Assembly (NCBI GenBank): GCA_000242935.3
Contig: CP007053.1
Location: 1,550,001 to 1,614,000 of the forward strand
Reading direction: 5' to 3'
DNA from: Opitutaceae bacterium TAV5
GTDB taxonomy: Bacteria; Verrucomicrobiota; Verrucomicrobiia; Opitutales; Opitutaceae
DNA length: 64,000 nucleotides
The notes under the pieces are model-generated. The model was not told where the DNA came from and searched no databases. It saw only the letters and a list, made by a program, of their open reading frames with translations. Below are positions 9,118 through 29,424 of this stretch, piece by piece. Position 1 is the first letter of the stretch. Every line of letters begins with the position of its first letter. Both the position numbers and the translations under genes were made by a program.

Positions 9118-9237
9118 AAGAATAGCCACAAAAAACACGAAAAACTCGCCACGCATGAAGCTCTCCACCGCGCCTATAGGCGCACGGAAGATTTCCGTCA
9201 GGCAGAATGAAATTTTGTGTTTTTTGTGGCTATTCTT
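9118..9237. repeat. Long inverted repeat between convergent genes
   Basis: Two perfect 21-nt arms (9118-9138 and 9217-9237) read AGAATAGCCACAAAAAACAC on one side and its complement on the other. The loop holds a second palindrome (CGCCTATAGGCG, 9170-9181). It lies between the 3' ends of the HdeD-like and ClC genes, so it could serve as a bidirectional terminator or be a small REP-like element. Confidence 0.6.
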
Positions 9238-9264: not shown

Positions 9265-11022
9265 CTACCCGCGGTCACTCTCCACCAGCGTTTCCTGCCC
9301 GCGCAGCAGGTCGTGCAGCGTGAAAATGCCGACCAGCTTGCGATGCTCCTCCACGCCGATGCAGAGGAAATTGGACGGTGAATCGATGATCCGGATCTGC
9401 GCGTTGCCCAGGGGCAGCGACGCCTCCGCCCACACCGCCGGCTCCAGTTTCGGCGGCTGTTTCGTCGCCAGCGCCAGCATCGCCTCCGGCCGCGTCAGCA
9501 ATCCCGTAATCGTCCCGTCCGCGCCCTGCACGGGGAAACAGTTGAACCGGTAGTTTTCCAGCGCCGTTTTCAGTCCCGCCTCCGACAGGTCCGAGACGAC
9601 CACCGGCCGGAAATTCGCCAGCTCGCCCACCGGCATTTCACGCCATTTCCGGTAATCGCGCGGCGGCAACACACGATGCGGGTCCTCGCCATCCTGACGC
9701 ATCATGCACTCGTACATGCCTTCCTTTTCCAGCCGGCGGCTGACCACCTGGCTCACCAGCGCCGCCACCAGCAGAAACGGCACCATCACAAACTGGTGCG
9801 TCACTTCGAAAATCAGGAGGATCGCCGTCACCGGCGTGCGGATCACCGACACGAATCCCGCACACATGCCCGCCATCGCCAGCATCGCCTTGTCCGAACC
9901 GGTCAACGGCAGGAAAAGGCCCGCCCCCGCCGCCACTGCCGCGCCGAACATGCCGCCGATAAAAAAGCTCGGAGCGAAGATCCCGCCACACCCGCCCGAA
10001 CCCACCGCCAGGAACGACGCCACCAGCTTCGCCACCGCCAGCACGAGCGCCGCGTGCCACACAAAATCGCCCGAAATCGCCGACGTCACCGCGTCGTAGC
10101 CGATGCCGAAAATCCCCGTGCTCCCCGTCCACCAGAAGGCCAGCACGCCCAGCACCCATGTGCCCAGCGCCCCGGCCGTCGGCGTCAGCCAGCGCGGCAA
10201 CCACGTCAGCCCCCGCATCCGTCCGCGCGTCGCCAGCGCGCCTTTCTGGAACGCCGCCCCGCCCGCGCCCGCCAGCGCCGCCACCACCGGGCAGAGCAAC
10301 ACGCCCCACCACGACGGATCGTCGAGCGCGCCCGCCTGGAATGCCGGTTGCGGGCCGATCAACGCGTGCGCCACCAGCGCCCCGGCCACCGCCGCCAGCA
10401 GCACGCCGCCGATCAGCCGGCTCGAAAGCTCCCCGATGATCTCCTCGAGCACGAACGCGATGGCCGCCAGTGGAGCGTTGAACACCGCCGCGATCGCCGC
10501 CGCCACCCCGCTCGCGCAAAACAGCCGCCGCTTCTGCTTCGGCACGCCCAGCGCGCCCGCTCCGGCGGACATCGCCGCCGCGCCCACCTGCACCACCGGC
10601 CCTTCCGGCCCCAGGCTCACGCCGCCGCCGAGCGTGATTGCGGACGCCAGAAATTTCACCACGCCGGTCCGCAGACGGATGTAACCGAAATCTTTCCAGA
10701 ACGAGAGTTTTGTCGGCAACACCCCGCCACCGGCCGCCTCCGGCGCAAACCCTTTGATCAGAAACGTGGCGAGCAAACTCGCCCCCACGACCGCCGCGAA
10801 CGACCCGGCAAGGAACACCCCGATCCCGTGCTCCGCCAACCTGCCGATCGTGAAGTGGTGGATGCGTTCGACGACGGCGTGAAACCCCACCGCGATGACA
10901 CCCACCCCCGTTCCGAGCACGCCGACCAGGATCACCTCGCGCCCGCTCTTCGGCACCCGGTTCCAGCGCCGGAGCAGCGGGGCAAAAGGACGGCGGGCAA
11001 AAGAAACGGGACGTGTTGTCAT
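9265..11022 (-). CDS. ClC-type chloride channel/transporter with CBS pair
   Basis: The 585-aa product has the ClC membrane core (residues about 25-440) followed by a CBS-domain region (about 460-580). Visible signatures include GGVSLGPEGPVVQVG, the region normally written GREGP, here with Pro in place of the basic residue, and GGCGGIFAPSFFIGG, which matches GxFxP. A Glu in GPEGP corresponds to the gating glutamate. It moves chloride, or exchanges chloride and protons, across the inner membrane; channel or exchanger mode cannot be decided here. The CBS pair suggests control by adenine nucleotides. Confidence 0.88.
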   Translation of the reverse strand: MTTRPVSFARRPFAPLLRRWNRVPKSGREVILVGVLGTGVGVIAVGFHAVVERIHHFTIGRLAEHGIGVFLAGSFAAVVGASLLATFLIKGFAPEAAGGGVLPTKLSFWKDFGYIRLRTGVVKFLASAITLGGGVSLGPEGPVVQVGAAAMSAGAGALGVPKQKRRLFCASGVAAAIAAVFNAPLAAIAFVLEEIIGELSSRLIGGVLLAAVAGALVAHALIGPQPAFQAGALDDPSWWGVLLCPVVAALAGAGGAAFQKGALATRGRMRGLTWLPRWLTPTAGALGTWVLGVLAFWWTGSTGIFGIGYDAVTSAISGDFVWHAALVLAVAKLVASFLAVGSGGCGGIFAPSFFIGGMFGAAVAAGAGLFLPLTGSDKAMLAMAGMCAGFVSVIRTPVTAILLIFEVTHQFVMVPFLLVAALVSQVVSRRLEKEGMYECMMRQDGEDPHRVLPPRDYRKWREMPVGELANFRPVVVSDLSEAGLKTALENYRFNCFPVQGADGTITGLLTRPEAMLALATKQPPKLEPAVWAEASLPLGNAQIRIIDSPSNFLCIGVEEHRKLVGIFTLHDLLRGQETLVESDRG

Positions 11023-12851: not shown

Positions 12852-14573
12852 TCAGTGCTCGAAGCCCAGCTTCAGCCACTGCATCCCGCCCTGCCGGCCG
12901 CTGGTGAACCTGTCCGCCATGCGGCCGATGATCCGCAGCGAGAGATCGGCGGGCAGTTCGCCGCCCTCCGGCAGATCCGGCCCGGCGGCACCAGGCCCGG
13001 CGTCGGCCTTCTCCAAAGCCCGGCCGGCGTAGCGGATGGTCGCGTCGATGTGAAACTCGTCGAACGCGAGTTCGATCTCCGCCTCCCGCCCCGGCTCGAC
13101 CACCTCGCCCGCGGTTTCGGCAAACTCCGCCAGCGCCAGCGTCACCCGCTGCATCACGTCGCGCCGGGCCGCCCACGCCCCGCCCTGTGCCTGGCAAAAC
13201 GCGTGCACGCGATCCACCGCGCCGTCGCCGGGTGCCAGGGTCAGTTGCGCCCGCATCCGCGTGCCGATCCGGAAAAAGAAATTGAGCAGGATGGCCACGA
13301 GCAGCGCCTCCGCCAGCGACGAGGCGGCCAGCGGAGCCAGCAGCGGCAGGTGGTTGAAAAAATCCGGGAAGATGTCGCGGCTGAGGCCGAAAATCAGCCC
13401 CAGGCCGACGACCAGCACCTTCCGGTTGTCCAGCAGCCGCGAGAGGATGATCTGCAGGCCGTTGATCAGAATGAAGCACGAGGAAAACAGCAGGATCGCA
13501 CCCGAGACCGGCATGGGGATCGACGTGGACAGCGCGATCGCGCCGGGGAAGAACGCCAGCACGATGAAGATGATCCCGACCGCAAGGCCCACGCGGCGCG
13601 CCTTCACCCCGGTCGCGACCGAGATCCCGATGCTGCCGGAGAACGGGCTCAGCCCCATCGTGCCGAGCCCGCCGGCGATCATGTTGCCCAGACCGTCGGC
13701 CAGCAGCCCGCGCTTGAGCGAGACCATGTCGGGACGCTGCCAGCCGGGGTCGTTGATTTTCTGGCAGGTGGTGAGGTCGCCCACCGTGCGCAGGCTCGAG
13801 GCCAGCGCCGTCACCGCGAATTCGAAGGCCAGCCCGGCGTCGAACTGCGGCAGCGCCAGCGGCGGCCGCGGCAGCCCGAGCACGCCGTGACGGAAACCCT
13901 CGCGCAACGCCTCCGGATCGATCTCGCCCAGCCACGCCGCCGCCGCCCAGGCCACGACCAGCACGATCAGCACCGCATAAATGCGCAGCGGACGCGGCCC
14001 CCAGATGTTCACGAAAAAGATGCCCGCCAGCGAGCAAAGCCCGATCACCGTGCCGACCGTCATCGCCGGCCCGGCCCCGGCACTGGTCTCCGGCAGGCCG
14101 AACATCAGGCGGAAACCCAGTATGCCCAGCACCACGCCGATCATGGTCACGGCCAGCCCCGCGATCTCCGTCGGCAACCAGGGCCGCAGCCGGCCCAGCA
14201 CGCGCGACAGCAGGACCTCGCACGCCCCGGCGAAGATCATCATGCCGGCGACCAGCGGCAGGCCGCCCCGCTCGGCCGCGTGGAAACACGGCGGCAGATA
14301 CGCCGCCGTGAAGATCGCCGGCGCCAGAAACCCGGAACCGAGCCCGCCGCGCCAGCGTCCGCACTGGAGCAGGCTGGCGATGCCCAGCGCCAGCATGGAG
14401 CCGGCGAGCATGGCGTTCATCGTGGCCTGGTCGGCCCGGGCGTGCCGGGCGACGAGCACCGGCAGCACCAGCCCGGGCGGGGCGATCGCGGCCAGATGCT
14501 GGATCGCGGTGAAAAACGTGACGCCGAACGGAGGTCGGTCATCGACGCCAAACTGCTCGGTCGTCGGACGCAT
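12852..14573 (-). CDS. NCS2 nucleobase permease fused to degenerate RsbW-like domain
   Basis: Residues about 15-430 are an NCS2 (uracil/xanthine) permease core with roughly 12-14 membrane segments and motifs such as QHLAAIAPP and a Q/N-rich loop near TCQKINDP. Residues about 440-573 resemble an anti-sigma-factor kinase of the GHKL fold, as in RsbW or SpoIIAB: an N-box-like helix (VTLALAEFAETAGEVV), a central strand pair, and the usual C-terminal ending (LRIIGRMADRF...GGMQWLKLGFEH). The N-box asparagine and the D-x-G-x-G box are not visible, so ATP binding is doubtful. The gene diverges from the ABC/partner-switching array at 14778 across 204 bp, which suggests joint control. The transported base is not known. 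Confidence 0.8.
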   Translation of the reverse strand: MRPTTEQFGVDDRPPFGVTFFTAIQHLAAIAPPGLVLPVLVARHARADQATMNAMLAGSMLALGIASLLQCGRWRGGLGSGFLAPAIFTAAYLPPCFHAAERGGLPLVAGMMIFAGACEVLLSRVLGRLRPWLPTEIAGLAVTMIGVVLGILGFRLMFGLPETSAGAGPAMTVGTVIGLCSLAGIFFVNIWGPRPLRIYAVLIVLVVAWAAAAWLGEIDPEALREGFRHGVLGLPRPPLALPQFDAGLAFEFAVTALASSLRTVGDLTTCQKINDPGWQRPDMVSLKRGLLADGLGNMIAGGLGTMGLSPFSGSIGISVATGVKARRVGLAVGIIFIVLAFFPGAIALSTSIPMPVSGAILLFSSCFILINGLQIILSRLLDNRKVLVVGLGLIFGLSRDIFPDFFNHLPLLAPLAASSLAEALLVAILLNFFFRIGTRMRAQLTLAPGDGAVDRVHAFCQAQGGAWAARRDVMQRVTLALAEFAETAGEVVEPGREAEIELAFDEFHIDATIRYAGRALEKADAGPGAAGPDLPEGGELPADLSLRIIGRMADRFTSGRQGGMQWLKLGFEH

Positions 14574-14777
14574 GGCAGAGACGACTGAGTGAACGCAAAA
14601 ATGAAGTCACGATAAAACCGGCATGACCCCTGCAACCTTCACCCGCAGGCGCTCCATCAGGCGCGACGGACCGGCCAAACCCGTTGTTGCGCAGACGCCC
14701 CTTTCTTGTCATCGCGGATACCGTCTTCCCCTGGCGGATACGCGCACGACCACGCCTCGACTCCTCTTCACCACCCG

Positions 14778-15818
14778 ATGCTGGCCATCCTGAAACGCCT
14801 CTCACTCGCCCTTCTGCTCATCGCAGGCTCCGCCGCGCTGCTGCTGTTCTCGGATCTCGATTCGCGCAAGCAGCCCGCCGGTTCACCTTCGGCCGGCCCG
14901 GACAACGCCGCGACTCCCGCCGGCAAAAAGTGGAAAATCGCCGTCATCTTTTACAACGAGACCCCCTCCGTCGAACAGGTGCTCGAGGGCATGGCCGCCG
15001 CCTGGAAGCGCAGTCCGCTCCTCGCCGGTCGCGATTACGATCTCAGGCAGAGCAGCGCGCAGGGCGACATGGCCACGCTCAACACCCTGATCGACGCCGC
15101 GCTCACCGACGGCGCCGACCTGGTCGTGCCGATCACCACACCCGCCCTCCAGGCCGCCGTCCAGCGCGTCCGGCGCATCCCCATCGTGTTTTCCCTCGTG
15201 GCCAGCCCGGCGGCCGCGGGGGCCGGCGCCAGCGACACCGATCACCTGCCCAACCTCACCGGCGTCGCCGTGCCCGCGCCGTGCGACGAAGCCCTCGGAC
15301 TCATCCGGAAACACTTCCCCGGCTTCCGGCGGATCGGCAGCATTTATTGTCCCGCCGAAGCCAACTCCGTCGCGATGAAAGAAAGCCTCGAGGAGGCGTG
15401 CCGCCGGCACGGCTTCGCGCTCGAACTCGTGGCGGCCAACACCGCCAACGATCTCCCCGACGCCGCGCTCGCGCTCGTCTCGCGTCCCGTCGATGCCGTG
15501 CTCCAGATCCCCGACAATCTTTCCTCCTCCGGCTTTGCCGCGATCACACGCGCCGCGCGCCAGGCGCGCAAACCGCTGCTCAGCCTGGACAACGCGGCCA
15601 TTCCGCTCGGCGCCGCCTTCACGTTCGGCCGCGACCAGCGCGATGCCGGTGCGGCCACCGTCGCGCTGATCGAGCGCGTGATCCGGGGCGAAGACCCGGC
15701 GCGCATCCCCATCCATCCGGCGAAAATCACCACCTCCGCCAGCCCCGCCAACGCCGCCGCCGTCGGCCTGACCCTGCCGCCCGGGTTGCTCGCCGAGACC
15801 GGCCAGATCCTGAAATAA
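14778..15818 (+). CDS. ABC transporter substrate-binding protein (DUF534/TrpX-like)
   Basis: The 346-aa product has an N-terminal membrane or signal segment (RLSLALLLIAGSAALLLF) and two Rossmann-like lobes of the ABC_sub_bind (PF04392) type, seen in KIAVIFYNETPSVEQVLEGM, VVPITTPALQA and RIGSIYCPAEANSVAM. Members include the TrpX component of tryptophan-type importers; the ligand here is unknown. The ATG at 14778 is chosen because it gives a normal signal segment; an earlier in-frame ATG at 14706 does not. It is the first gene of the array and is followed after 31 bp by a STAS protein. Confidence 0.82.
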   Translation: MLAILKRLSLALLLIAGSAALLLFSDLDSRKQPAGSPSAGPDNAATPAGKKWKIAVIFYNETPSVEQVLEGMAAAWKRSPLLAGRDYDLRQSSAQGDMATLNTLIDAALTDGADLVVPITTPALQAAVQRVRRIPIVFSLVASPAAAGAGASDTDHLPNLTGVAVPAPCDEALGLIRKHFPGFRRIGSIYCPAEANSVAMKESLEEACRRHGFALELVAANTANDLPDAALALVSRPVDAVLQIPDNLSSSGFAAITRAARQARKPLLSLDNAAIPLGAAFTFGRDQRDAGAATVALIERVIRGEDPARIPIHPAKITTSASPANAAAVGLTLPPGLLAETGQILK

Positions 15819-15849
15819 TCCCGACGCAACCCGCCACACGCCTCCACCG

Positions 15850-17085
15850 ATGGACATCTCCCGCCACAAAACCGGCAACCGGCTCACCCTCCGACTCGTC
15901 GGCCGGCTCGACGCCAACTGGTGCAACCACGTCCAGGATGCCCTCGCCGCCGCCGTGCGCGACGGCGAGCACCACCTCTTCCTCGACATGGCCGGCGTCG
16001 GCTACATCAGCTCCGCCGGCCTGCGCGTGCTGCTCTCGTTCTACAAACAACTGCGCGCCATCAACGGCCGGTTCGGCGTCGTACGCAGCTCGCCGGCCAC
16101 GCGCTCCGTCATCGAACTCGCCGGGCTCGACCTGCTCTTCGCCGCCGATCCCGAAGCGACCCCCGCGGACGGTGAAACGGGCTCCGCGCACGCCTCCGCC
16201 AGCGCCCGCTACGAACTCTTCCGCCAGGAGACGCTTCCCGCCGCCATGCGCCTCGCCCTCGTCGGCGACGCCGGCGTGCTGCACCACGGCGCCGACCCGG
16301 CGCGCGTGCTGCCGGCCGGGTTCGGCGCCCACGCCTTCGCGCTCGGCGTCGGCGCGCTCGGGACCACCTGGGCCGACTGCGCGCCCCGCTTCGGCGAGTT
16401 CCTCGCCGTGGCCGGCGTGGCCGCGTTCCAGCCCTCCGACGACTCCAGCCGGCCCGACTTCGCCGTGAGCCAGGGCGCCTTCGTGCCCGAAGGCCGGCTG
16501 CTCGCCGGACTGTCCGGCGAAGGCGCGTTCCCGCTGCTCGCCCGCTTCGAGGCCACCGCCGGGGCGCGCACGGTCGGGCTCGCCGAACTGGCGGGCGCCG
16601 CGCTCGAACTCGCCGCCGCGCCCGCCGCGGCATTCGTCGCCCTCGCCGAAACCGCCGGCCTCGTCGGCGCCGCGCTGCGCCGGTCGCCCGCGCCCCCGGA
16701 TGCCGGGGAGCGCTTCGCGTTTCCGCAAATCCGCGACTGGCTCTCGTTCACCAGCGAACGCGCGTTCCGCGACTCGACGTCGCTCCTCGTCGGCGTCGTC
16801 GCCCGGCCCGGCACGCCGCTCGACCCGCTGCTGCGCCCGCTCGGCCGCGACTCCGGGCTCCACGCGCATGTGCACGCCGCGGCGTTTCCCTACCGCCCGC
16901 TGCGCAAAGGCCGCATCGAACAAAAAGCCGCCGTGACCGAACTCTTCGACGGCCACGCCCTCCAGGCCGTGCTCCACCTCCTCGCCGACCCCCGCGAATT
17001 CAACGGTGCCGGCGAAAGCGCCTTTTACCGCGGCGCGCTCTGGATCGCGCCGGTCCAATCGCAAATCACAAATCCGGAATCGTAA
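15850..17085 (+). CDS. STAS-domain protein fused to an unrecognised ~300-aa domain
   Basis: Residues 1-105 are a STAS domain of the anti-sigma antagonist type with the phosphorylation-site pattern YISSAGLRV (serines 54-55). Residues about 115-411 are rich in Ala, Gly, Leu and Phe and match no family that I recognise. The gene lies between the ABC binding protein and permease genes, ending 5 bp before the permease start. The place suggests that this protein couples the transporter or its ligand to the partner-switching proteins further along. That role is inference. Confidence 0.7.
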   Translation: MDISRHKTGNRLTLRLVGRLDANWCNHVQDALAAAVRDGEHHLFLDMAGVGYISSAGLRVLLSFYKQLRAINGRFGVVRSSPATRSVIELAGLDLLFAADPEATPADGETGSAHASASARYELFRQETLPAAMRLALVGDAGVLHHGADPARVLPAGFGAHAFALGVGALGTTWADCAPRFGEFLAVAGVAAFQPSDDSSRPDFAVSQGAFVPEGRLLAGLSGEGAFPLLARFEATAGARTVGLAELAGAALELAAAPAAAFVALAETAGLVGAALRRSPAPPDAGERFAFPQIRDWLSFTSERAFRDSTSLLVGVVARPGTPLDPLLRPLGRDSGLHAHVHAAAFPYRPLRKGRIEQKAAVTELFDGHALQAVLHLLADPREFNGAGESAFYRGALWIAPVQSQITNPES

Positions 17086-17090
17086 ATTCG

Positions 17091-18023
17091 ATGACTCTCC
17101 TCCTCGGCGCTCTCACCATCGGCCTGATCCTTTCGCTGCTCGCACTGGGCGTGCTCGTGTCGTTCCGCGTCTTCTCCATCCCCGACATCACCACCGACGG
17201 CTCGATCACCTTCGGCGCCGCCATCGCCGCGACGCTGCTCGTCCACGGCGTCAACCCCGTCCTGGCCACCCTCGCCGGTGCGGCGGGTGGCGCGCTCGCT
17301 GGCGCGATCACCGGCCTGATCCACACGAAATTCGGCATCAATTCCCTGCTTGCGGGCATCCTCGTGATGACCGCCCTCTACTCGGTCAACCTCCACGTGA
17401 TGGGCCGCAGCAACGTGCCGCTCATGCAGGCGCACACCTTCGCCAGCTACAGCGAGGCGCTGGGCGCGACGCTCTTCCGCGGCCCGACGATCAACGTCCT
17501 CGGCTGGCCGGTGAACTCGGCCGACGCCGCCATGCTGCTCCTCGCGCTTGGCGGCGCGGTGCTCGGCGGCGCGGCGCTCTTCGCGTTCTTCCGCACCCAC
17601 ATCGGCACCGCCATGCGCGCCACCGGCGACAACCCGCAGATGATCCGCGCGCTCGGCGCCAACGTCGAAGGCTACATCATCCTCGGCCTCGCGCTCTCCA
17701 ACGGCCTCGTCGCCCTCGCCGGCGCCCTCCTCGCGCAGTATCAGGGTTTCGCCGACGCGCAGATGGGCATCGGCATGATCGTGTGGGGCCTCGCCAGCGT
17801 GATCATCGGCGAGGCGCTCACCGGCACGCGCAGCCTCGGCCTCACCATCGCCGGCACGATCATGGGTTCGGTCCTCTTCCGCCTGCTCGTCGCGGTCGCC
17901 CTGCGCTGGGGCCTCAACCCCAACGACCTCAAGCTCATCACCGCCCTCTTCGTCTTTGCCGCGCTCGTCCTCCCCGGCCTGCTGAAGAAACTCCGCCGCC
18001 GCACCGTCACCCGCACTGCCTGA
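17091..18023 (+). CDS. ABC transporter permease (TrpY/COG4120-like)
   Basis: The 310-aa protein has about eight to nine membrane segments and resembles the branched-chain-amino-acid type permeases of the COG4120 group, which pair with ABC_sub_bind proteins. A conserved stretch (RVFSIPDITTDGSITFGAAI) near residue 30 is typical. It follows the STAS fusion gene by 5 bp and is followed by the ATPase gene after 5 bp, so translation is probably coupled. Inner membrane import of a small organic molecule is the likely role. Confidence 0.85.
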   Translation: MTLLLGALTIGLILSLLALGVLVSFRVFSIPDITTDGSITFGAAIAATLLVHGVNPVLATLAGAAGGALAGAITGLIHTKFGINSLLAGILVMTALYSVNLHVMGRSNVPLMQAHTFASYSEALGATLFRGPTINVLGWPVNSADAAMLLLALGGAVLGGAALFAFFRTHIGTAMRATGDNPQMIRALGANVEGYIILGLALSNGLVALAGALLAQYQGFADAQMGIGMIVWGLASVIIGEALTGTRSLGLTIAGTIMGSVLFRLLVAVALRWGLNPNDLKLITALFVFAALVLPGLLKKLRRRTVTRTA

Positions 18024-18028
18024 CCGCC

Positions 18029-18841
18029 ATGCTCACGCTCACCGGCCTCCGCAAGACCTTCAACCCCGGCACCGTCAACGAAGTCCGCGCCCTCCGGGGC
18101 GTGGACCTCGCCATCGACGACGGCTCGTTCGTGATCGTCCTCGGCATGAACGGCTCCGGCAAATCCACGCTCCTCAACGCCGTCGCCGGCTCTTTTCCCG
18201 TGGACGAAGGCCGCATCGAACTCGCCGGGCACGACGTCACCCGCTGGCCCGAGCACCGGCGCGCGCGCCTCATCGGCCGCGTCTTCCAAAATCCCTTCAG
18301 CGGCACCGCGCCCGGCATGTCCATCGCCGAGAATTTCGCCCTCGCCTCGGCCCGCGGACACCCGCGCGGGCTCGGCCGGGCGCTTTCGCCGCGCCTGACA
18401 AAACCCCTGCGCGAACGCATCGCCTCGCTCAGGATGGGCCTCGAGGACCGCCTCGACAACGCCATCGGCTCGCTCTCCGGCGGCCAGCGCCAGGCGCTCA
18501 CCCTGCTCATGGCGACCTGGCTCCGCCCGCACCTGCTGCTGCTCGACGAGCACACGGCCGCGCTCGATCCGAAGAGCGCGGACCAGGTCATCACACTCAG
18601 CGACGGGATCGTGCGCCGCGACAAGCTCACCACGCTCATGGTCACGCACTCGATGCAGCAAGCCGTCAGCCTCGGCGACCGCATCATCATGATGCACCGC
18701 GGCCGCGTCCTGCACGACTTCCGCGGGGCCGATAAAAAACGCCTGCGCCCCGAGGATCTGCTCGACCGCTTCGACGAAGTGCGCCGCCGCGAACAGCTCG
18801 ACGATTCCGCCGCCGCCATGCTGCGCGATCTGTATGTCTGA
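18029..18841 (+). CDS. ABC transporter ATP-binding protein (COG1101-like)
   Basis: The 270-aa protein has a Walker A (GMNGSGKST), Q-loop (FQNPF), signature LSGGQRQAL, Walker B (LLLLDEH) and H-loop histidine (THSM). It drives the permease and binding protein encoded just upstream. The start at 18029 lies 5 bp after the permease stop. The combination of these three genes matches TrpXYZ-like importers. Confidence 0.9.
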   Translation: MLTLTGLRKTFNPGTVNEVRALRGVDLAIDDGSFVIVLGMNGSGKSTLLNAVAGSFPVDEGRIELAGHDVTRWPEHRRARLIGRVFQNPFSGTAPGMSIAENFALASARGHPRGLGRALSPRLTKPLRERIASLRMGLEDRLDNAIGSLSGGQRQALTLLMATWLRPHLLLLDEHTAALDPKSADQVITLSDGIVRRDKLTTLMVTHSMQQAVSLGDRIIMMHRGRVLHDFRGADKKRLRPEDLLDRFDEVRRREQLDDSAAAMLRDLYV

Positions 18842-18890
18842 CGCTGCGACCCGCCGCGCCCGCTTCAGGTGAATCAACGGCGCCCGAACC

Positions 18891-18914
18891 CTGCGAGCTC
18901 ACGTTCGCAGCTAC
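18891..18914 (-). repeat. Dispersed GTAGCTGCGAACGTG repeat, copy 1
   Basis: CTGCGAGCTCACG followed by TTCGCAGCTAC matches the right arm of the repeat at 48519-48542 at 23 of 24 positions. It lies in the gap between the ABC ATPase gene and the next STAS gene, so it may serve as a terminator or REP element. A further CGGCTACGCAGGG tail follows. Confidence 0.55.
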
Positions 18915-18955
18915 GGTTCGCGGCTACGCAGGGAGTCCCCTCCGCGCGCTCCGTG

Positions 18956-19004
18956 CCCGTTCCGTTAAAAATAGTGCCCGCTTCGTGCATTCCGCATTGG
19001 AGCG
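18956..19004 (+). promoter_or_regulatory. Conserved 49-nt upstream block, copy 2 (STAS gene)
   Basis: This block is 41/49 identical to the one upstream of ilvA at 11216-11264. It ends 68 nt before the STAS start at 19073. If it contains a promoter, the STAS-RsbW-STAS part of the array can be transcribed separately from the ABC genes. Confidence 0.5.
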
Positions 19005-19072
19005 CCGGGATGCAGCCGGACAATCCGTCCCCGCCGCGATCTCGCCGACAGACCGCGCCCGCTTCATTTCCC

Positions 19073-19471
19073 ATGGCATCACTCGACACGGATTTTTTTC
19101 AGCACGAAGCCGGCCCCCTGACGATCCGGCTGGCCGGCCGGCTCGACGGCAACTCGGCTCCGGCCTTCGGTCGCCGGCTCGCGGAACACCTGTCCGCGAC
19201 GGCCACCGGCGTAGTCCTCGACGCGAGCGGACTGGAATTCATCAGCAGCGCCGGGCTGCGCGAGCTGATGACGCTGGCGAAAAAGCTGCGCCAGAACCAG
19301 GCGAAGGCCGTGCTCGCCGGCGTGACGCCTCTCGTAAACGAAGTGCTGGAAATCTCGGGCATGAACCCGCTCTTTCTCCACGCGGCCGACCAGACCGAGG
19401 CGCTGCGCCGTCTCGCGGACAACAGCGACGGGCCGCCGGACCGGTTGTTTGCCGGCGGCGCCAAGGCATGA
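19073..19471 (+). CDS. Anti-sigma factor antagonist (STAS domain)
   Basis: The 132-aa protein is a single STAS domain with the motif FISSAGLRELM, which carries the serine pair phosphorylated in SpoIIAA/RsbV homologues. It begins MASLDTDFF; the frame is open upstream but this ATG gives the expected domain start. It precedes the RsbW-like kinase gene by 24 bp and is the most likely target of that kinase. The unphosphorylated form would bind the kinase and free its partner. Confidence 0.85.
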   Translation: MASLDTDFFQHEAGPLTIRLAGRLDGNSAPAFGRRLAEHLSATATGVVLDASGLEFISSAGLRELMTLAKKLRQNQAKAVLAGVTPLVNEVLEISGMNPLFLHAADQTEALRRLADNSDGPPDRLFAGGAKA

Positions 19472-19495
19472 CCCTCCCTGCCGGCCGGCGACGCC

Positions 19496-20032
19496 ATGAA
19501 GCATCGGCTGCGGTCCGTTTTCACACGCACAGGAAATGATTGTCTCCACCACCGTTCGACGCCATGCGTGGACCGACCACATCCTGCCACCCCCCCCTTG
19601 ACTCAGGCCCGCCAACAAGTCCTCACCCTGCGCAACGACCTCGCGGAGTTGCCACGGCTCGCGGCGTTCATCGACGCGTTTTGCGCCCCGCTGCGACCGG
19701 GCGACCAGGACACGCTCGCGCTCCAGCTCGCCCTGGAGGAGACGGTGACCAACGTCATCAACCATGGCTACCGCGACGGCCTGCCCCATACCTTCAACGT
19801 CACGCTCTCGGCCGACGACAGCCGCCGGATCACCGTCATGGTGGACGACGACGCGCCCGCCTTCGACCCGCTGGCCCGCCCGCCCGTCGATACCGGCGCG
19901 CCGCTCGAAGCGCGCCCCGTCGGCGGCCTCGGCATCCACCTCGTGAGAAAGCTGGTGGACCGCGCGCGCTACGAACGCCGCGACGGGAGGAACATCCTCA
20001 CCCTCGAACGCACTCTCCGCCCCCTTTCCTGA
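19496..20032 (+). CDS. Anti-sigma regulatory factor, RsbW/SpoIIAB-type kinase
   Basis: The protein has up to 178 aa. From about residue 40 it is a complete GHKL ATPase: N-box LEETVTNVINHGY, G1-like DDDAPAFDPL and G2 GGLGIHLVRKLVD. It would phosphorylate STAS proteins on serine and in other bacteria also holds a sigma factor or other target. The N-terminus before residue 35 is unlike the family; a TTG start at 19598 would give a typical length, so the true start is open. The next STAS gene begins 4 bp after its stop. No sigma factor is encoded nearby. Confidence 0.85.
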   Translation: MKHRLRSVFTRTGNDCLHHRSTPCVDRPHPATPPLTQARQQVLTLRNDLAELPRLAAFIDAFCAPLRPGDQDTLALQLALEETVTNVINHGYRDGLPHTFNVTLSADDSRRITVMVDDDAPAFDPLARPPVDTGAPLEARPVGGLGIHLVRKLVDRARYERRDGRNILTLERTLRPLS

Positions 20033-20036
20033 CCTT

Positions 20037-20372
20037 ATGGACATCACCGAAAAACAACTGGATTCCGCCACGGTACTGGCCCTCGCGGGCCGGCTCGACG
20101 GGCTGAGCAGCCCCGCCCTGGAACAGAAGATCGACGCGTTGCTGGCCTCCGGCCTCCGGCAGCTCGTCTTCGATTGCGCCGCGCTCTCCTACGTGAGCAG
20201 CGCCGGGCTCCGCGTCTTCCTCGGCGCGGCGAAAAAATTCAAGTCGGCGGGCGGCGTCGCCGCCTTCGCCGCGCTCACCCCCGCCGTCAGCGAGGTGTTC
20301 GAACTCTCCGGCTTCAACAGCGTCCTCTCTGTCCACCCCGGCGTCGACCAGGCGGTCGCCGCGCTGCGTTGA
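20037..20372 (+). CDS. Anti-sigma factor antagonist (STAS domain)
   Basis: The 111-aa protein is a compact STAS domain with YVSSAGLRVFLGAAKKF, carrying the phosphorylatable serine pair. It starts 4 bp after the RsbW-like gene, so the two are very likely co-translated and the products interact. It differs from the STAS protein at 19073 enough to suggest a distinct partner, for example the degenerate kinase-like domain of the NCS2 permease. Confidence 0.88.
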   Translation: MDITEKQLDSATVLALAGRLDGLSSPALEQKIDALLASGLRQLVFDCAALSYVSSAGLRVFLGAAKKFKSAGGVAAFAALTPAVSEVFELSGFNSVLSVHPGVDQAVAALR

Positions 20373-20386
20373 CCGGGGCTCCCGCC

Positions 20387-21052
20387 ATGACTCCTCCCGT
20401 CCACCTCACCTTCGTCGAGGAACTCGTCCTCCTCGGCCTCGACGACCGCACCGGCGCCCTGCTGCCCATGCCTGTCATGGGTTTCAACTACGCCCTCGCC
20501 GGCGCCCTCCTCGCCGACCTCGCCCTTGCCGGCCGCATCGACACCGACCTCGAGCAACTCACTGTCATCCGCGACGAGCCCACCGGCGACAGCATGCTCG
20601 ACGCCGCGCTCGACACCATCAAGGCCGCCCCCGGGCCCCTGCCCGTCGCTCACTGGCTCGGCGTCCTGTCCTCCTGGCGCCCCACCCTGGAAAACGAAGC
20701 CCTCGCCCGCCTCGTCGGCCACGGCATCCTGCGCCGCGAGGACAAGAAAATCCTCCGGGTCTTCGGCACGCGCCGTTACCCCACGGTCAACCACCAGGAG
20801 CGCACCGAGGTGAAGACCCGCCTCTCCGCCCTCATCCTCGGCGACGACATCCCCGATCCGCGCGACGCCGTGCTCATCAGCCTCCTCACCGCCTGCCACC
20901 TCGCGCAGCACATCTTCACCGACCCCGCCTGCGCCGCCCGCTCCACCCGCCTCGCCAACCTCGCCCGCATGGACCAGGTCGGCCGCGAAGTCGGCGCCTC
21001 CCTCGACCTGCTCACCCGCGTGCTCATGTCGGCGCACCCGATGGGCATGTAG
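20387..21052 (+). CDS. GPP34 (Golgi phosphoprotein 3) family protein
   Basis: The 221-aa protein begins LTFVEELVLLGLDDRTGALL and continues with NYALAGALLADLALAGRI, the hallmark opening of the GPP34 family, with later helices including HQERTEVKTRLSALILG. Eukaryotic members bind phosphatidylinositol-4-phosphate; bacterial members, best known in actinobacteria, have no clear role. The start at 20387 lies 14 bp after the preceding STAS gene. Its place inside a signalling array is unusual and hints at a membrane-linked regulatory role, which is inference. Confidence 0.8.
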   Translation: MTPPVHLTFVEELVLLGLDDRTGALLPMPVMGFNYALAGALLADLALAGRIDTDLEQLTVIRDEPTGDSMLDAALDTIKAAPGPLPVAHWLGVLSSWRPTLENEALARLVGHGILRREDKKILRVFGTRRYPTVNHQERTEVKTRLSALILGDDIPDPRDAVLISLLTACHLAQHIFTDPACAARSTRLANLARMDQVGREVGASLDLLTRVLMSAHPMGM

Positions 21053-21144
21053 TTTGAAACAACGTACCACTCCCGTCTCCGCACGCGCGCCGGCAAAGCC
21101 TTGCCCCCGCCTCCCCGCGGAGATCGCCCGCACTACCGCTCCCG

Positions 21145-21522
21145 ATGCCCAGGATCCTCCTCGTCGAAGACAACGAAATGAACCGCGACATGCTCTCCCG
21201 CCGCCTCCTCCGCCGCGGCTACGAGATCGTCATCGCCGTGGACGGCCGGCAAGGCGTCGACCTCGCCGCCAGCGAACAACCCGCCCTCATCCTCATGGAC
21301 ATGAGCCTCCCCGTCATCGACGGCTGGGAGGCCACCCGCCGCATCAAGGCAGGGGAGACCACCCGGCACATCCCCGTCATCGCCCTCACCGCCCATGCCA
21401 TGGCCGGCGACCGCGAACAGGCCCTCGCCGCCGGCTGCGACGACTACGACACCAAGCCCATCGACCTCGCCCGGCTCCTCCCCAAGATCGAGAAATTCGC
21501 CGGTCCCGGCTCGCCTCCGTAA
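21145..21522 (+). CDS. Single-domain response regulator (CheY-like)
   Basis: The 125-aa protein is one receiver domain. The acidic pair is in LLVEDNEMN, the phosphoacceptor is D52 in LILMDMSLP, and the conserved lysine is K104 in DTKPID. There is no output domain, so it acts by protein contact or as a phosphorelay intermediate. It ends 3 bp before the HisKA-receiver-PP2C gene and is probably phosphorylated by the hybrid kinase encoded at 23045. Confidence 0.92.
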   Translation: MPRILLVEDNEMNRDMLSRRLLRRGYEIVIAVDGRQGVDLAASEQPALILMDMSLPVIDGWEATRRIKAGETTRHIPVIALTAHAMAGDREQALAAGCDDYDTKPIDLARLLPKIEKFAGPGSPP

Positions 21523-21525
21523 GCC

Positions 21526-23034
21526 ATGTCCTCACCCACCCCGCTCTCGCACCTGCGGCACGACCTCCGCACTCCGATCAACCAGATCATCGGCTACAGC
21601 GAGCTGCTCATGGAGGAGGCCGACGATGCCGGCCATGCCGCCTACGCCCCGGACCTCGAAAAAATCCGCGACGCCGCCAGGCACCTCCTCAACCTCATCA
21701 ATGACAACCTCACCGACGACCGCCTCAGGCTCGCCGGCGATGTCGTCGACGCCGGCGCGCAGACCGTCCCGGCCGGCTCCATGGAAGTCTTCCGGAATCT
21801 CCCCGGCAACTTCCCCACGCTCCTCGCCGAAAGCTCCGCCTCCTTTCCGCAGGATCGCCCCGCGCCCGTCCCCGGCCGCATCCTCGTCGTCGACGACAAC
21901 GAGGGCAACCGCGACATGCTCTCCCGCCAGCTCGAACGCCAGGGCCACGCCGTCGCCACGGCCGCCGATGGCCAGGCCGCGCTCGAGCGCCTCCGCGCCG
22001 GGCCCTTCGACCTCGTTCTCCTCGACATGATGATGCCCGTGCTCGACGGCTACGGCGCCCTCGACGCCATCAAGACCGACCCCGCTCTCCGCCACCTCCC
22101 CGTCATCATGATCTCGGCCCTCGACGAGCTCGCCAGCGTCGTCCGCTGCATCGAGCGCGGCGCCGAGGATTTTCTGCCGAAACCCTTCAACCCGACCCTC
22201 CTCCGCGCCCGCATCGGCGCCGGCCTGGAGAAAAAACGCTTCCGCGACCAGGAGCGCACCTGGATCAAGACCATCGAGGACACCCAGGCCCGCCTTCAGG
22301 CCGAACTCGCCGAGGCCGGGAACTACGTGCGCTCGATCCTCCCGCCCCCCGGCCTCTCGCGCACCATCCCCGTGGACTGGCGGTTGATCCCCTCCACCGA
22401 ACTCGGCGGCGACTCCTTCGGGTATCACTGGATCGACGACGACCACTTCGCCCTCTACCTCCTCGACGTGTGCGGACACGGCGTCGGCGCCGCCCTCCTC
22501 TCCGTCGCCGCCATCAACGTCCTGCGCAACGGCGCCCTTCCCGACGTCGATTTCCGCGATCCCGGCGCCCTGCTCACCGGGCTGAACGAGGCCTTCCTCA
22601 TGGAGAAGCAGAACGACATGTATTTCACTCTCTGGTACGGCGTCTGGCAGCCCTCCACCCGCACCCTGCGCTACGCCACCGCCGGCCACCCCCCGGCCCT
22701 TCTCGTCACCGGTTCTCCCGACCGCTCCGCCCCCGCGACCGTCGAGCCCCTCAAGGCCGCCGGCATGATCCTCGGCGGCATGAGCGGCACGACCTACAAG
22801 ACCTTCACCCGCGCCCTCCCCGACCCCGTCCGCCTCTACCTCGTGAGCGACGGCACCTTCGAAATCACCCGCGCCGACGGCACCCTCTGGCCCGTCGCCG
22901 ACTTCCACGCCTTCTTCGCCCGGCCCGTCTCCGACGGCGAATCCGACCTCGACCGCCTCCATGCCCACGTGAAAAGCCTCGGCCGCGCCGGCCCTCTCGA
23001 TGACGACTTCTCCATTGTCCGCTTCACCCTCTGA
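21526..23034 (+). CDS. HisKA-receiver-PP2C (RsbU/SpoIIE-type) phosphatase
   Basis: The 502-aa protein has three parts. Residues about 8-65 resemble a histidine kinase dimerisation domain with H12 in LRHDLRTPINQIIGYSELL, but no ATPase domain follows. Residues about 115-235 are a receiver (LVVDDNEGN; LVLLDMMMPVLDG). Residues about 260-502 are a PP2C-type phosphatase (ELGGDSFGYHWIDDD; DVCGHGVGAALLS; TAGHPPALL; SDGTFEI; LDDDFSIVRF). It should remove phosphate from STAS proteins when its receiver is activated, switching partner binding. The isolated H-box could accept phosphate or serve for dimerisation. Confidence 0.9.
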   Translation: MSSPTPLSHLRHDLRTPINQIIGYSELLMEEADDAGHAAYAPDLEKIRDAARHLLNLINDNLTDDRLRLAGDVVDAGAQTVPAGSMEVFRNLPGNFPTLLAESSASFPQDRPAPVPGRILVVDDNEGNRDMLSRQLERQGHAVATAADGQAALERLRAGPFDLVLLDMMMPVLDGYGALDAIKTDPALRHLPVIMISALDELASVVRCIERGAEDFLPKPFNPTLLRARIGAGLEKKRFRDQERTWIKTIEDTQARLQAELAEAGNYVRSILPPPGLSRTIPVDWRLIPSTELGGDSFGYHWIDDDHFALYLLDVCGHGVGAALLSVAAINVLRNGALPDVDFRDPGALLTGLNEAFLMEKQNDMYFTLWYGVWQPSTRTLRYATAGHPPALLVTGSPDRSAPATVEPLKAAGMILGGMSGTTYKTFTRALPDPVRLYLVSDGTFEITRADGTLWPVADFHAFFARPVSDGESDLDRLHAHVKSLGRAGPLDDDFSIVRFTL

Positions 23035-23044
23035 GGCCCGCCCG

Positions 23045-25585
23045 ATGACCCTGCACCGCTCCCTTCGCACCCGGTTCGCCGGCTGGTTCCTGCTGATCGG
23101 CGCCCTCGTCGTCCTCGCCCTCTGCGGCGGTTACCGCAGCCTCCGTATCAATGTCGAGGATACCCTCGGCCAGGACACGGCCTCGCGTATCGGCGAAGTG
23201 CGGCGCGAGCTCAACAACACCCACGCCCTCTATCTCGACCGCGTGAAGGCCTCCCTCCGCGTTCTCGAGCACCTCGCCACCCTCCGCGGCGCTCCCTCCG
23301 CCGGCGCGCCCGTCGACCTCGGCCCGCGCACCGTGCCCGACCTCCGCTTCGGCTCCACCCCGGTTGCCCTCGACTTCGAAATCGTCGACCAGCTCGTCCG
23401 CCTCATGGGCGGCACCGCCACCCTTTTCACCCGCGACGGCGACAACTTCGTGCGCCTCTCCACCAACATCCGGCGCGCCGACGGCACCCGCGCCGTCGGC
23501 ACCGTGCTCGACCCCGCCGGCCCGGCCATCGCCGCGATCCGGCGCGGCGAGGCCTGGTACGGCGTCGCGGACATCCTCGGCCGCTCCTACATCACCGGCT
23601 ACGAACCCGTCCGCGCCCCCTCCGGCCGCATCATCGGCGTCTACTACGTCGGCTACCTCGTCGAAACCCTCGACCGCCTCGGCGAGCAACTCGCCGACGC
23701 CCGCCTCCTCGACCACGGCTTTTTCGCCCTCATCGGCGAGCACGACCGCGTCCTCTTCAAGACCGGCGACGCCGACGACGCCCTCATCGCCGCCGCCTCC
23801 GCCCGCTATCCCGGCTCCGGGACCTCCTCCTGGACCGACGGTCCCTGGCACTGGCAGGGCGAGGATTTTCCCCTCTGGCGCTTCCACCTCCTCGCCGCCA
23901 CCTGGCGGCCCGACATCCGGCGGCACACCTGGGCCCGCATCCTGCCCGCCTTCGGCTTCATGACCCCCGCCCTCCTCGGCGCCCTCGCCCTCGGTTTCCT
24001 CTTCGCCCGCCGCCTCTCCCGTTCCCTCGAGGAAGCCGAGCGCCTCGAGGCCGAGGCCACCGCCGCCCGCGAGCTCGCCGAGGAGGCCAGCCGCACCAAG
24101 AGCGCCTTCCTCGCCAACATGAGCCACGAACTCCGCACCCCGATGAACGCCATCATCGGCTACAGCGAAATGCTCATCGAGGACGCCGGGGACACGGGCA
24201 ACGACGACGCCATCCCCGACCTGCGGAAAATCCACACCGCCGGCAAGCACCTCCTCGGCCTCATCAACGACGTCCTCGACATCTCCAAAATCGAGGCCGG
24301 CAAGATGACCCTCTACCTCGAGGACGCCGACGTCCACGCGCTCGTCTCCGAAGTCGCCGCCACCATCCGCCCTCTCGTCGAGCAAAACCGGAATACCCTC
24401 GTCGTCGAGTGCCCCCCCGACCTCGGCAGCCTCCATGCCGACATCACCAAAGTCCGCCAGACCCTTTTCAACCTCCTCGGCAACGCGGCCAAGTTCACCC
24501 ACGCCGGCCGCATCACTCTCGCCGTCGCGCGCAAGCGCCACCAGAACCGCGACTGGTTCACCTTCCGCGTCGCCGACACCGGCATCGGCATGACCCGCGA
24601 GCAACTCGGCAAGCTCTTCCAGGCCTTCGTGCAGGCCGACGCCTCCACCACCCGCAAATACGGCGGCACCGGCCTCGGCCTCGCCATCAGCCGCAAGTTC
24701 TGCCAGCTCATGGGCGGCGACATCGCCGTCGCCAGCGAGCCCGGCCAGGGCACCGCGTTCACCGCCACCCTCCCCGCGCGCGTCGAGGACCCCGCCGCCC
24801 CCGCGCCCGCCCCGGCCGCGACCGTGCCCCCCTTCGCGATGCACCGCCCGCTGATCCTCACCATCGACGACGATCCCGCCGTGCTCGACCTCCTCGGCCG
24901 CAACCTCGCCCGCGAAGGCTACGCCGTGCGCGCCGCCACCAACGGCCGCGACGCCCTCGCCCTCGCCCGCGAACTCCAGCCCCGCCTCATCACGCTCGAC
25001 GTCATGATGCCCAGCATGGACGGCTGGTCCGTCCTCACCGCGCTCAAGGCCGACCCCGCCACCGCGGACATCCCCGTCGTGATGGTCTCCATCGTCGAGG
25101 ATCGCCAGCTCGGCTTCGCCCTCGGCGCCGCCGACTACCTCACCAAGCCCGTCGACCGCGCCCGCCTCGCCCGCATCCTCGCCCGGCATGCCCTGCCGGA
25201 CCGGCCGCGCACCGCGCTCGTCATCGACGACCTGCCCGACAACCGCGCCATGCTCGCCACCCTCCTCTCCCGCGAAGGCTGGCAGGTCGTCGAGGCCGCC
25301 GACGGCCGCGCCGGTCTCGACGCCTTCGCCGCCGGCCGCCCCGCGCTCATCCTGCTCGACCTGATGATGCCCGTGATGGACGGCTTCGAGTTCCTGCGCG
25401 AGCTGCGCAGCCGCGAGGACGGCCGCGACGTGCCTGTGGTGGTTGTGACCGCCAAGGAGCTCACCCCCGAGGAGAACAACCTCCTCCGCGCCTGCGTGGA
25501 AAACATCGTGCAAAAAGGCGCGGTCAGCCACGAGGAACTCCTCGCCGACATCCGCGGCAAGATCAGCAAGCTCACGAAATCCTGA
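23045..25585 (+). CDS. Cache-domain hybrid histidine kinase with two receivers
   Basis: The 846-aa protein has an N-terminal membrane segment (about 12-30), an extracytoplasmic Cache-type sensor (about 35-290; for example YVGYLVETLDRLG), a second membrane segment (about 300-325), a short coiled region, HisKA (H361 in NMSHELRTPMN), an ATPase domain with GTGLGLAIS, and two receivers (LITLDVMMPSMDG; LILLDLMMPVMDG). A small extracytoplasmic ligand would modulate phosphorelay to the receiver proteins encoded upstream. The ATG at 23045 is preferred over 23000, which would overlap the previous gene. The gene ends the array, tail-to-tail with coaX. Confidence 0.92.
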   Translation: MTLHRSLRTRFAGWFLLIGALVVLALCGGYRSLRINVEDTLGQDTASRIGEVRRELNNTHALYLDRVKASLRVLEHLATLRGAPSAGAPVDLGPRTVPDLRFGSTPVALDFEIVDQLVRLMGGTATLFTRDGDNFVRLSTNIRRADGTRAVGTVLDPAGPAIAAIRRGEAWYGVADILGRSYITGYEPVRAPSGRIIGVYYVGYLVETLDRLGEQLADARLLDHGFFALIGEHDRVLFKTGDADDALIAAASARYPGSGTSSWTDGPWHWQGEDFPLWRFHLLAATWRPDIRRHTWARILPAFGFMTPALLGALALGFLFARRLSRSLEEAERLEAEATAARELAEEASRTKSAFLANMSHELRTPMNAIIGYSEMLIEDAGDTGNDDAIPDLRKIHTAGKHLLGLINDVLDISKIEAGKMTLYLEDADVHALVSEVAATIRPLVEQNRNTLVVECPPDLGSLHADITKVRQTLFNLLGNAAKFTHAGRITLAVARKRHQNRDWFTFRVADTGIGMTREQLGKLFQAFVQADASTTRKYGGTGLGLAISRKFCQLMGGDIAVASEPGQGTAFTATLPARVEDPAAPAPAPAATVPPFAMHRPLILTIDDDPAVLDLLGRNLAREGYAVRAATNGRDALALARELQPRLITLDVMMPSMDGWSVLTALKADPATADIPVVMVSIVEDRQLGFALGAADYLTKPVDRARLARILARHALPDRPRTALVIDDLPDNRAMLATLLSREGWQVVEAADGRAGLDAFAAGRPALILLDLMMPVMDGFEFLRELRSREDGRDVPVVVVTAKELTPEENNLLRACVENIVQKGAVSHEELLADIRGKISKLTKS

Positions 25586-27804: not shown

Positions 27805-28016
27805 CGGAAATCCCGCCGATCCTTCCACCGTCTCCCCGGCCACCGCGAGCTTTTGTCCCGGGCATGACCATTTTCCGGCAAACCCGCGAAAGAAGCCGCT
27901 CCTCTGCGCCGGTCACCGCCGGTTTCAAAACCTCGCATCCTGACAGGATTAACGCAGACGGGTGCAAATCGGAGGCATCAGCCCGTAAAAGAATCTCCTC
28001 CACTCCGCGCTTGCGT

Positions 28017-28045
28017 TGAAACCGGTTTGAAATTGTTTCAGAAAC
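28017..28045. promoter_or_regulatory. Overlapping LacI-type operator palindromes upstream of lacI-like gene
   Basis: TGAAACCGGTTTGA (28017-28030), TGAAA-TTG-TTTCA (28028-28040) and GTTTC-A-GAAAC (28035-28045) overlap just before the start at 28049. They resemble typical LacI-family sites, so autoregulation is likely. Related sites occur before the GH130 gene. Confidence 0.6.
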
Positions 28046-28048
28046 AGC

Positions 28049-29086: not shown

Positions 29087-29145
29087 CCTGCCCGCCGGTT
29101 TCAAAATCCGCCACTCGATGACGCCCCTGCAGAGGCTCCGGACGG

Positions 29146-29424
29146 TCAAGCGGGGCGGTCGAAAACATCAGGGGAATTCAGCAAGGAACACAGATGAGGC
29201 AGCTCGCGGACGGGTGCCTCCAGCCGCTGTTCGAACACTGCCCATGCCTCATCACTCAACGCAAAAGTCCGGTGTTCCGCGATGTCCTCACGGGCGCGCG
29301 TGATGGCCGCCCGGAGAATGTAGTCGGTCAAATTAGCCGCGCCGGAAAGTTCCGCCGCCATTTGAAGAAACGACTTCGTCCCGGGTGAGGCTTTCAAGTG
29401 AATCTGTGCTAATGCTGTAGCCAT
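29146..29424 (-). CDS. DUF1778 (TacA-like) antitoxin without visible toxin
   Basis: The 92-aa protein matches the DUF1778 family, ribbon-helix-helix antitoxins that pair with GNAT-type acetyltransferase toxins. Features are IHLKASPGTKSFLQMAAELSG (DNA-binding half), NLTDYILRAAI and the toxin-neutralising C-terminal part (FALSDEAWAVFEQRL). The start at 29424 is chosen because the family starts near this point; 29448 is an alternative. The usual toxin gene should follow downstream, but the adjoining sequence is the lacI-like gene in the other orientation, so it is an orphan. Confidence 0.75.
   Translation of the reverse strand: MATALAQIHLKASPGTKSFLQMAAELSGAANLTDYILRAAITRAREDIAEHRTFALSDEAWAVFEQRLEAPVRELPHLCSLLNSPDVFDRPA

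Follow-up and report, generated by a model that had tools for sequence, protein, structure and literature searches.

A partner-switch array that may act directly on an ABC importer in Opitutaceae bacterium TAV5

What does a partner switch control when one of its parts is encoded inside an importer operon and no sigma factor lies nearby? The question is raised by a locus in the 7.4-Mb genome of Opitutaceae bacterium TAV5, which we read within a window of 64,000 nucleotides (contig CP007053.1 of assembly GCA_000242935.3, positions 1,550,001 to 1,614,000; the coordinates below are those of the window). Eleven genes on the plus strand (14778-25585) form an array in which neighboring genes overlap or are separated by less than 100 bases, except for 231 bases ahead of the second STAS gene. 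A divergent NCS2 permease gene lies on the minus strand (12852-14573). A first-pass annotation had listed in the array an ATP-binding cassette (ABC) importer of the ABC_sub_bind type, three STAS proteins, an RsbW-like kinase, a PP2C phosphatase with a receiver, a lone receiver and a Cache hybrid kinase. Pfam matches each of these families, although the list overlooked a GPP34 gene and a decarboxylase-like domain in the first STAS protein. We infer from genomes that the array probably encodes a phosphorylation-controlled partner switch that acts directly on the ABC importer, with transport as its output.

The first four genes form the importer cassette. It opens with a substrate-binding protein of the ABC_sub_bind family (14778-15818 from its Met start, the longest frame beginning at 14706; PF04392, E 5e-39; solved relatives 3lft, 3lkv and 6hni), followed by a protein in which a STAS domain is fused to a second domain (15850-17085; STAS, E 8e-16), a BPD_transp_2 permease (17091-18023; PF02653, E 1e-26) and an ATPase with legible Walker A, signature and Walker B motifs (18029-18841; ABC_tran, E 1e-25). 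The best NCBIfam match of the binding protein is TrpX (NF041285), at 134.4 bits against a cut-off of 390, which is not reached. It carries one binding domain in the window and one to five fused copies in relatives.

Residues 1-107 of the fusion protein form a SpoIIAA/RsbV-like STAS domain. The C-terminal part (from 16200 on) matches no Pfam family at E<=1, the acetolactate decarboxylase family PF03306 included. An AlphaFold2 (AF2) model built on an alignment of 26 sequences (pLDDT 90.7, pTM 0.89) predicts a known fold for this part. Residues 133-408 model as the acetolactate-decarboxylase/C11orf54 fold, aligning with acetolactate decarboxylase 6j92 (Z 17.5, root-mean-square deviation 2.9, 203 residues aligned) and human PTD012/C11orf54 1xcr (Z 14.5, root-mean-square deviation 4.0, 232 aligned) at 9-15% identity. 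The STAS serine is invariant in the 26 aligned fusion proteins, as are Glu183, His340, His342 and His376 of the decarboxylase-like domain (26/26 each).

The signaling genes follow. Free STAS protein 2 (19073-19471; STAS, E 9e-16) precedes the RsbW-type serine kinase (19496-20032; HATPase_c_2, E 5e-23), free STAS protein 3 (20037-20372; STAS, E 3e-18) and the adjoining GPP34/GOLPH3 homologue (20387-21052; PF05719, E 2e-50). A single-domain receiver (21145-21522; Response_reg, E 3e-24) leads to a SpoIIE-type phosphatase of HisKA-receiver-PP2C architecture (21526-23034; HisKA 7e-11, Response_reg 1e-28, SpoIIE 8e-36), in which a Pfam search gives no ATPase domain. The array closes with a hybrid histidine kinase to which Pfam assigns Cache_3-Cache_2, HisKA, HATPase_c and two Response_reg domains (23000-25585). 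Three of the six STAS matches in the genome fall within the array.

Are these signaling proteins likely to work? The N-box Glu and Asn of the kinase are present in 28 of 30 aligned rows, the remaining two being gapped, and the glycines in all 30; both boxes are intact in the window's kinase. The STAS serine occurs in 119 of 121 domains, fusions included, and in all three STAS domains of the window, and 21-22 of 22 PP2C sequences have the metal Asp residues. The array thus holds the elements of a partner-switching module of the SpoIIAA/AB/E type, namely the STAS serine, the N-box and G-box of a GHKL kinase and the metal-binding Asp residues of a PP2C/SpoIIE phosphatase. Because these motifs are intact, the machinery looks functional. 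The kinase does not reach the NCBIfam RsbW/SpoIIAB equivalog (best 33.8 bits; cut-off 145).

The first-pass annotation had made its proposal depend in part on a gene order shared with at least some relatives. We scanned a collection holding one genome per species (84,980 species) with a peptide pattern taken from the profile of the decarboxylase-like domain. The scan returned 218 stretches and 98 relatives, the best 80 of which were used (loci L161-L240). Since these loci were chosen by one pattern in that domain, the residues of the pattern are conserved in them by selection of the loci. A second set (L127-L151) shares contigs with the 80, and all counts therefore come from L161-L240, in which four pairs are at least 90% identical in the domain. 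Gene maps were drawn with hidden Markov models (HMMs) seeded with the window's proteins, and weak relatives may escape them.

The order substrate-binding protein, STAS fusion, permease, ATPase is kept in 62 of the 80 loci, so the proposal survives this check; in these loci, as with MlaB, a STAS gene lies inside an ABC operon. The other 18 comprise seven loci that show no binding protein, five that show no ATPase, three with the binding protein last, two with binding protein and fusion only and one with the fusion only, and many of them are on short contigs. By titles and tree grouping, the 80 loci carry ten phylum names: Verrucomicrobiota, Lentisphaerota, Kiritimatiellota, Planctomycetota, Acidobacteriota, Pseudomonadota, Myxococcota, Thermodesulfobacteriota, Armatimonadota and one actinobacterial. 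These names are the submitters' titles, mostly of metagenome-assembled genomes (MAGs), and some are probably wrong. The locus titled Candidatus Planktophila (Actinomycetota; L195), at least 90% identical in the domain to the proteobacterial L190, is probably a binning error.

Closer to the window, the decarboxylase-like domain occurs in 6 of 120 genomes of the family, TAV5 included. In L321, from another genus, two substrate-binding proteins, the STAS fusion, permease, ATPase, RsbW, STAS, GPP34, receiver, HisKA-receiver-PP2C and Cache kinase follow the window's order at identities of 34-87% (72% for STAS protein 3, 58% for GPP34, 87% for the receiver, 65% for the phosphatase, and 51% and 70% over two segments of the Cache kinase, which is cut by the contig end). 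This array is without NCS2 or the extra STAS gene. L322 keeps the order up to GPP34 (71% for STAS protein 3, 78% for GPP34), where its contig nearly ends, and the other three family members reach contig ends sooner. We considered free STAS protein 2 as a core member and rejected it, as a separate counterpart is missing in both L321 and L322.

Of the 80 loci, 29 encode RsbW and 19 encode PP2C; 16 have the two together, and 32 have at least one of them. GPP34 is found in 6. To set their positions against chance, each gene was placed at random in the flanks of its own locus in 2000 runs, and the share lying within 1.5 kb of the cassette was recorded. The observed share is 76% of 29 copies for RsbW (28% at random; 0/2000 runs), 71% of 41 for free STAS proteins (25%; 0/2000), 52% of 21 for PP2C (26%; 15/2000) and 83% of 6 for GPP34 (25%; 7/2000). 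A background of 28 loci (L037-L064; 480 kb) held one RsbW, no PP2C and no STAS. Two STAS-bearing GPP34 loci had been left out of it, so its STAS zero is biased; the placement test is independent of it. Parts of the array are also fused to one another within cassette loci: L130, a Lentisphaerae locus on the contig of L239, encodes STAS-GPP34 and dCache-HAMP-PP2C-RsbW as single proteins by Pfam, and such fusions are also mapped in L238.

These results bear on the plainest alternative, that an importer operon and a signaling operon merely touch. Such an accident would fit the hybrid kinase and receivers, which vary by lineage and are not enriched beside the cassette, but it sits badly with the order kept in L321 and across phyla, with the fused parts and with the placement tests, and we find it barely credible as an account of the locus. 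Chance adjacency is unlikely for the importer, STAS, RsbW and GPP34 genes; it may hold for NCS2, present in one of the 80 other loci.

If the module is real, a sigma factor would be its classical target: the kinase would hold a sigma factor encoded elsewhere, with the importer operon among that factor's targets. The first-pass annotation had seen no sigma factor close by, and we agree. None lies in the array; of the 22 Sigma70_r2 matches in the genome, the nearest (46964-47167) is about 21 kb away. Among the open reading frames of the 80 cassette loci, three sigma-factor queries found a single weak match (L232, E 3e-5), though divergent factors could escape them. A strong match was seen in L160, a locus without the cassette. 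The kinase does match an anti-sigma kinase family with its motifs intact, and the genome offers the 22 Sigma70_r2 matches, yet a STAS domain fused into a transporter operon would be superfluous for such a switch. We regard this account as quite improbable, and we rejected the label "anti-sigma system" for the array since neither its surroundings nor, apart from the weak L232 match, the 80 relatives hold a sigma factor by these queries.

The fold of the fusion protein suggests another target. Here the switch would control an enzyme: the STAS-decarboxylase-fold protein would be a regulated decarboxylase acting on the entering compound, and the importer would merely supply its substrate. The predicted fold and the four invariant residues speak for such an enzyme. 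A 2025 study reports that C11orf54 decarboxylates 3-dehydro-L-gulonate, has a zinc site of three His residues and is a structural relative of acetolactate decarboxylase (PMC12435205). Sequence similarity to real decarboxylases is nevertheless marginal. In hhalign, the local probability against true acetolactate decarboxylases is 27% and the global alignment is nil, the weak local match pairing the GEF motif of the fusion domain (Glu183) with their GEM motif; PF03306 has no match in the window's genome. True acetolactate decarboxylase genes do occur in related settings: in L129/L218 and L130/L239 they lie upstream of the cassette, and in L124 one directly follows PP2C, STAS and RsbW genes. The fusion gene, however, mostly sits between binding protein and permease, which points to a role in transport, and we consider a regulated enzyme a lesser, rather unlikely possibility.

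Three further observations concern this fold and its neighbors. The L124 row (G349:C9:59803-63108), with no importer gene within its 3.3 kb stretch, links partner switch and decarboxylase independently of the importer. A second STAS-decarboxylase-fold subfamily (L152-L155) has 23-24% identity to the window's protein, and no ABC cassette was found in about 20 kb around it. In L146 and L150, a thiamine-pyrophosphate enzyme, possibly acetolactate synthase-like, adjoins STAS and RsbW genes (by Pfam in L150, by similar sequence in L146).

A third alternative reverses the flow of information: the binding protein and the ABC unit would be the sensor, and the switch would act on GPP34 and further STAS partners, for example in envelope or membrane remodeling. 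The window's GPP34 is a clear family member (172 bits against a PF05719 cut-off of 29.1) and finds human GOLPH3 (3kn1) by sequence at E 1e-10. The residues of the phosphatidylinositol 4-phosphate pocket of human GOLPH3 seem not to be kept, although the alignment has gaps at these positions. In the class, 28 of 286 genomes carry GPP34, and in the phylum 29 of 288 do (overlapping sets). Among 51 distinct GPP34 loci from class and phylum (27 + 19 + 5 with a GPP34 HMM match), there are nine in which a same-strand STAS gene adjoins GPP34 or is fused to it within the stretch covered; in three of the nine the two form a single reading frame, and three also have RsbW. Seven of the nine show no importer gene in the stretch seen (at most 3.6 kb; about 19 kb for two).

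These STAS-GPP34 loci, together with the effect of the Streptomyces GPP34 protein SCO4440 on peptidoglycan dimers (PMC12402492), speak for a reversed flow. The importer, on the other hand, is nearly constant while GPP34 is present in just 6 of 80 loci, and several PP2C proteins bear sensor domains of their own (dCache, cNMP), so we hold a reversed flow to be improbable. In a tree of the decarboxylase-like domain, the GPP34 loci do not form one group: the window stands in one place, L171 with L181, L190, L193 and L195 in a second and L238 in a third. The pairs and fusions seen without an importer gene (L117/L294, L297, L301, L303, L312, L017 and L019, some with RsbW) are perhaps a separate STAS-GOLPH3 module. 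The SCO4440 paper describes GOLPH3-like proteins as previously undescribed in prokaryotes (PMC12402492).

The divergent NCS2 gene was drawn into the same locus by the first-pass annotation, which also gave its product a kinase-like domain. The second claim is borne out as a predicted fold. The permease itself, of the xanthine/uracil type, matches Xan_ur_permease at 155 bits (cut-off 27; E 2e-45) and does not reach the cut-off of the PbuX xanthine permease family TIGR03173 (192 against 414 bits). Its C-terminal tail (12855-13253) has no Pfam match at E<=1. An AF2 model of the tail from three sequences (pLDDT 83) has UsfX, RsbW and SpoIIAB as its best Foldseek matches (best E 5e-6). Structure scores for this model are Z 13-14 with anti-sigma kinases, 12.0 with LvrC, 10.9 with SiaB and at most 8.6 with histidine kinases, and hhalign aligns the tail with the RsbW family of the cassette at probability 95. 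In that alignment the N-box Asn of the window's tail is substituted and the glycine box absent, and in the other two tails the Asn is not evident in the corresponding helix. With these residues lost, the tail is probably a pseudokinase that serves as a non-catalytic STAS dock.

The claim of a single locus held in part. The plus-strand array recurs in order in L321, whereas a divergent NCS2 gene with a tail adjoins the cassette only in the window itself and in one of the 80 loci, L221 from an Armatimonadetes MAG (tail E 4e-10). NCS2 is absent from L321, and we rejected it as a core member.

How would the parts work together? All contacts between molecules in the model below are inferred, as are the switch direction and the substrate; it builds on the genes and their clustering, on a conserved gene order, on intact motifs and on predicted folds, which were directly observed or computed. 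By standard signaling logic, which gives the chain from Cache kinase through receiver-PP2C to STAS, the Cache domain of the hybrid kinase would detect a ligand in the periplasm, and the kinase would hand phosphate on to the receiver domain of the phosphatase, with the lone receiver as a relay or sink. The RsbW-type kinase would phosphorylate the conserved Ser55 of the STAS domains, and the activated phosphatase would remove the phosphate. The dephosphorylated STAS fusion would then dock on the ABC ATPase as MlaB does on MlaF, turning import on or off with no need for new gene expression, while the decarboxylase-like domain would sense or process the imported compound. The free STAS proteins would compete for the kinase, one of them serving GPP34 as a second, membrane-linked target, and the pseudokinase tail of the window's NCS2 permease would be a third docking site. 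The cassette ATPases share a C-terminal extension (every fourth ATPase was inspected), which might be the STAS dock, though it may be general to the ATPase family.

Five observations weigh against a switch that acts on the importer. Neither RsbW nor PP2C is found in 48 of the 80 loci, some of which are explained by short contigs. Receivers and histidine kinases are not enriched, with 12% within 1.5 kb of the cassette against 23% and 27% at random. The one listed congener of the window's species (G559) has no match to the fusion domain. In Foldseek, the STAS domain of the fusion finds anti-sigma antagonists best, and MlaB chains lower down (E 3e-3). In the Mla precedent, finally, Thr52Ala is also non-functional (PMC7367683).

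The lack of enrichment suggests that the phosphorelay input is lineage-specific. The signaling input varies, and the output cassette is constant. Variants of the input by Pfam include dCache-HAMP-PP2C near an NMT1-type binding protein (L130, L151), cNMP-PP2C (L150) and hybrid kinases (L142, L150). An NMT1/THI5-like binding protein recurs in L189, L212, L238, L239 and L240 and lies, by Pfam, beside dCache-HAMP-PP2C on L130 (the contig of L239) and L151 (that of L212); it is perhaps a soluble sensor for the phosphatase. Other recurrent flank families resemble, by eye, chemosensory genes encoding methyl-accepting chemotaxis proteins (MCPs) and CheW (L168, L183, L185, L206, L210, L214 and L217), and Pfam confirmed MCPs only in L140 and L146, which are not among these seven. 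A recurring transporter near the cassette resembles a Na/phosphate cotransporter by eye (L181, L188, L190, L193, L195 and L197), and L127 has a PHO4 phosphate transporter.

The guanine plus cytosine (GC) content of the array is about 69-70%, compared with 56-66% in the other 4-kb bins of the window and 68% in the bin that shares its 3' end. Because the array stands above the rest of the window, it was possibly acquired from elsewhere. Directly past it, GC falls abruptly to 56-60% (28001-36000). A sigma-70 promoter scan gave 0 sites, and a terminator scan gave seven against 4.8 expected, all on the minus strand. The largest repeats in the window are the paralogous receivers and HisKA domains. 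An inverted repeat with 25-nt arms, 96% complementary and 70 nt apart, lies at 9118-9237, beyond the stop of a CLC channel gene (9265-11022).

We found no description of the combination of importer and partner switch in the open-licence literature, as judged by titles and the openings of abstracts, and the terms "ABC transporter" and "MlaB" are absent from the text of a review of STAS-only proteins (PMC8256260). Post-translational control of ABC transporters is poorly understood, and if the STAS fusion does gate the importer, this would be a new class of such control. The locus is a second, widespread STAS-ABC candidate, and because kinase and phosphatase are encoded alongside, the phosphorylation question raised by the MlaFB study, in which a STAS subunit was shown to be able to control an ABC ATPase (PMC7367683), becomes testable. 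Bacterial GPP34 (GOLPH3) proteins, on which we found one experimental study, gain a concrete candidate partner in STAS, and a decarboxylase fold is tied to signaling. We advance the fullest version tentatively, as possible at well under an even chance: a new transporter-control class in which a serine-phosphorylation switch gates an importer through a STAS-decarboxylase fusion and couples import to processing, a GOLPH3 homologue is a STAS-linked membrane adaptor and a pseudokinase tail recruits a second transporter.

The signaling core resembles SpoIIAA-SpoIIAB-SpoIIE and RsbV-RsbW-RsbU in having a STAS antagonist, a serine kinase of the GHKL type and a PP2C phosphatase, all with their motifs intact. 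It differs in that no sigma factor is near and that one STAS copy, joined to an enzyme-like domain, is encoded within the operon of a transporter. In HsbR-HsbA, SypE-SypA and BtrU/V/W, multi-domain or receiver-driven PP2C proteins act on STAS proteins, with outputs beyond the classical stress sigma factor; we know of none among these that targets an ABC importer or contains GPP34. The GPP34 protein shares its domain, by sequence, with GOLPH3/Vps74 and SCO4440 but is here paired with or, in relatives, fused to STAS. The second domain of the STAS fusion has the predicted fold of acetolactate decarboxylase and C11orf54; unlike them, it has no Pfam match and is joined to STAS. TrpXYZ, a tryptophan importer, has a binding protein of the same family, whereas here the TrpX cut-off is missed, relatives have multiple fused binding domains and a STAS fusion is present.

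The closest precedent is MlaFEDB of E. coli, alike in having a STAS protein of an ABC transporter. MlaB binds the ATPase MlaF, and a phosphomimetic substitution at Thr52, the position that is phosphorylated in other STAS proteins, makes this binding weaker; the authors left phosphorylation of MlaB in cells open and noted no second STAS-ABC structure in the PDB (PMC7367683). The Mla system transports lipids, its MlaB consists of one STAS domain only, and the paper names no kinase for it (PMC7367683). The array has a BPD_transp_2 permease and an ABC_sub_bind binding protein instead of an MlaE-type permease and MlaD, and it combines this TrpX-type importer with a decarboxylase-fold fusion and with RsbW and PP2C genes alongside.

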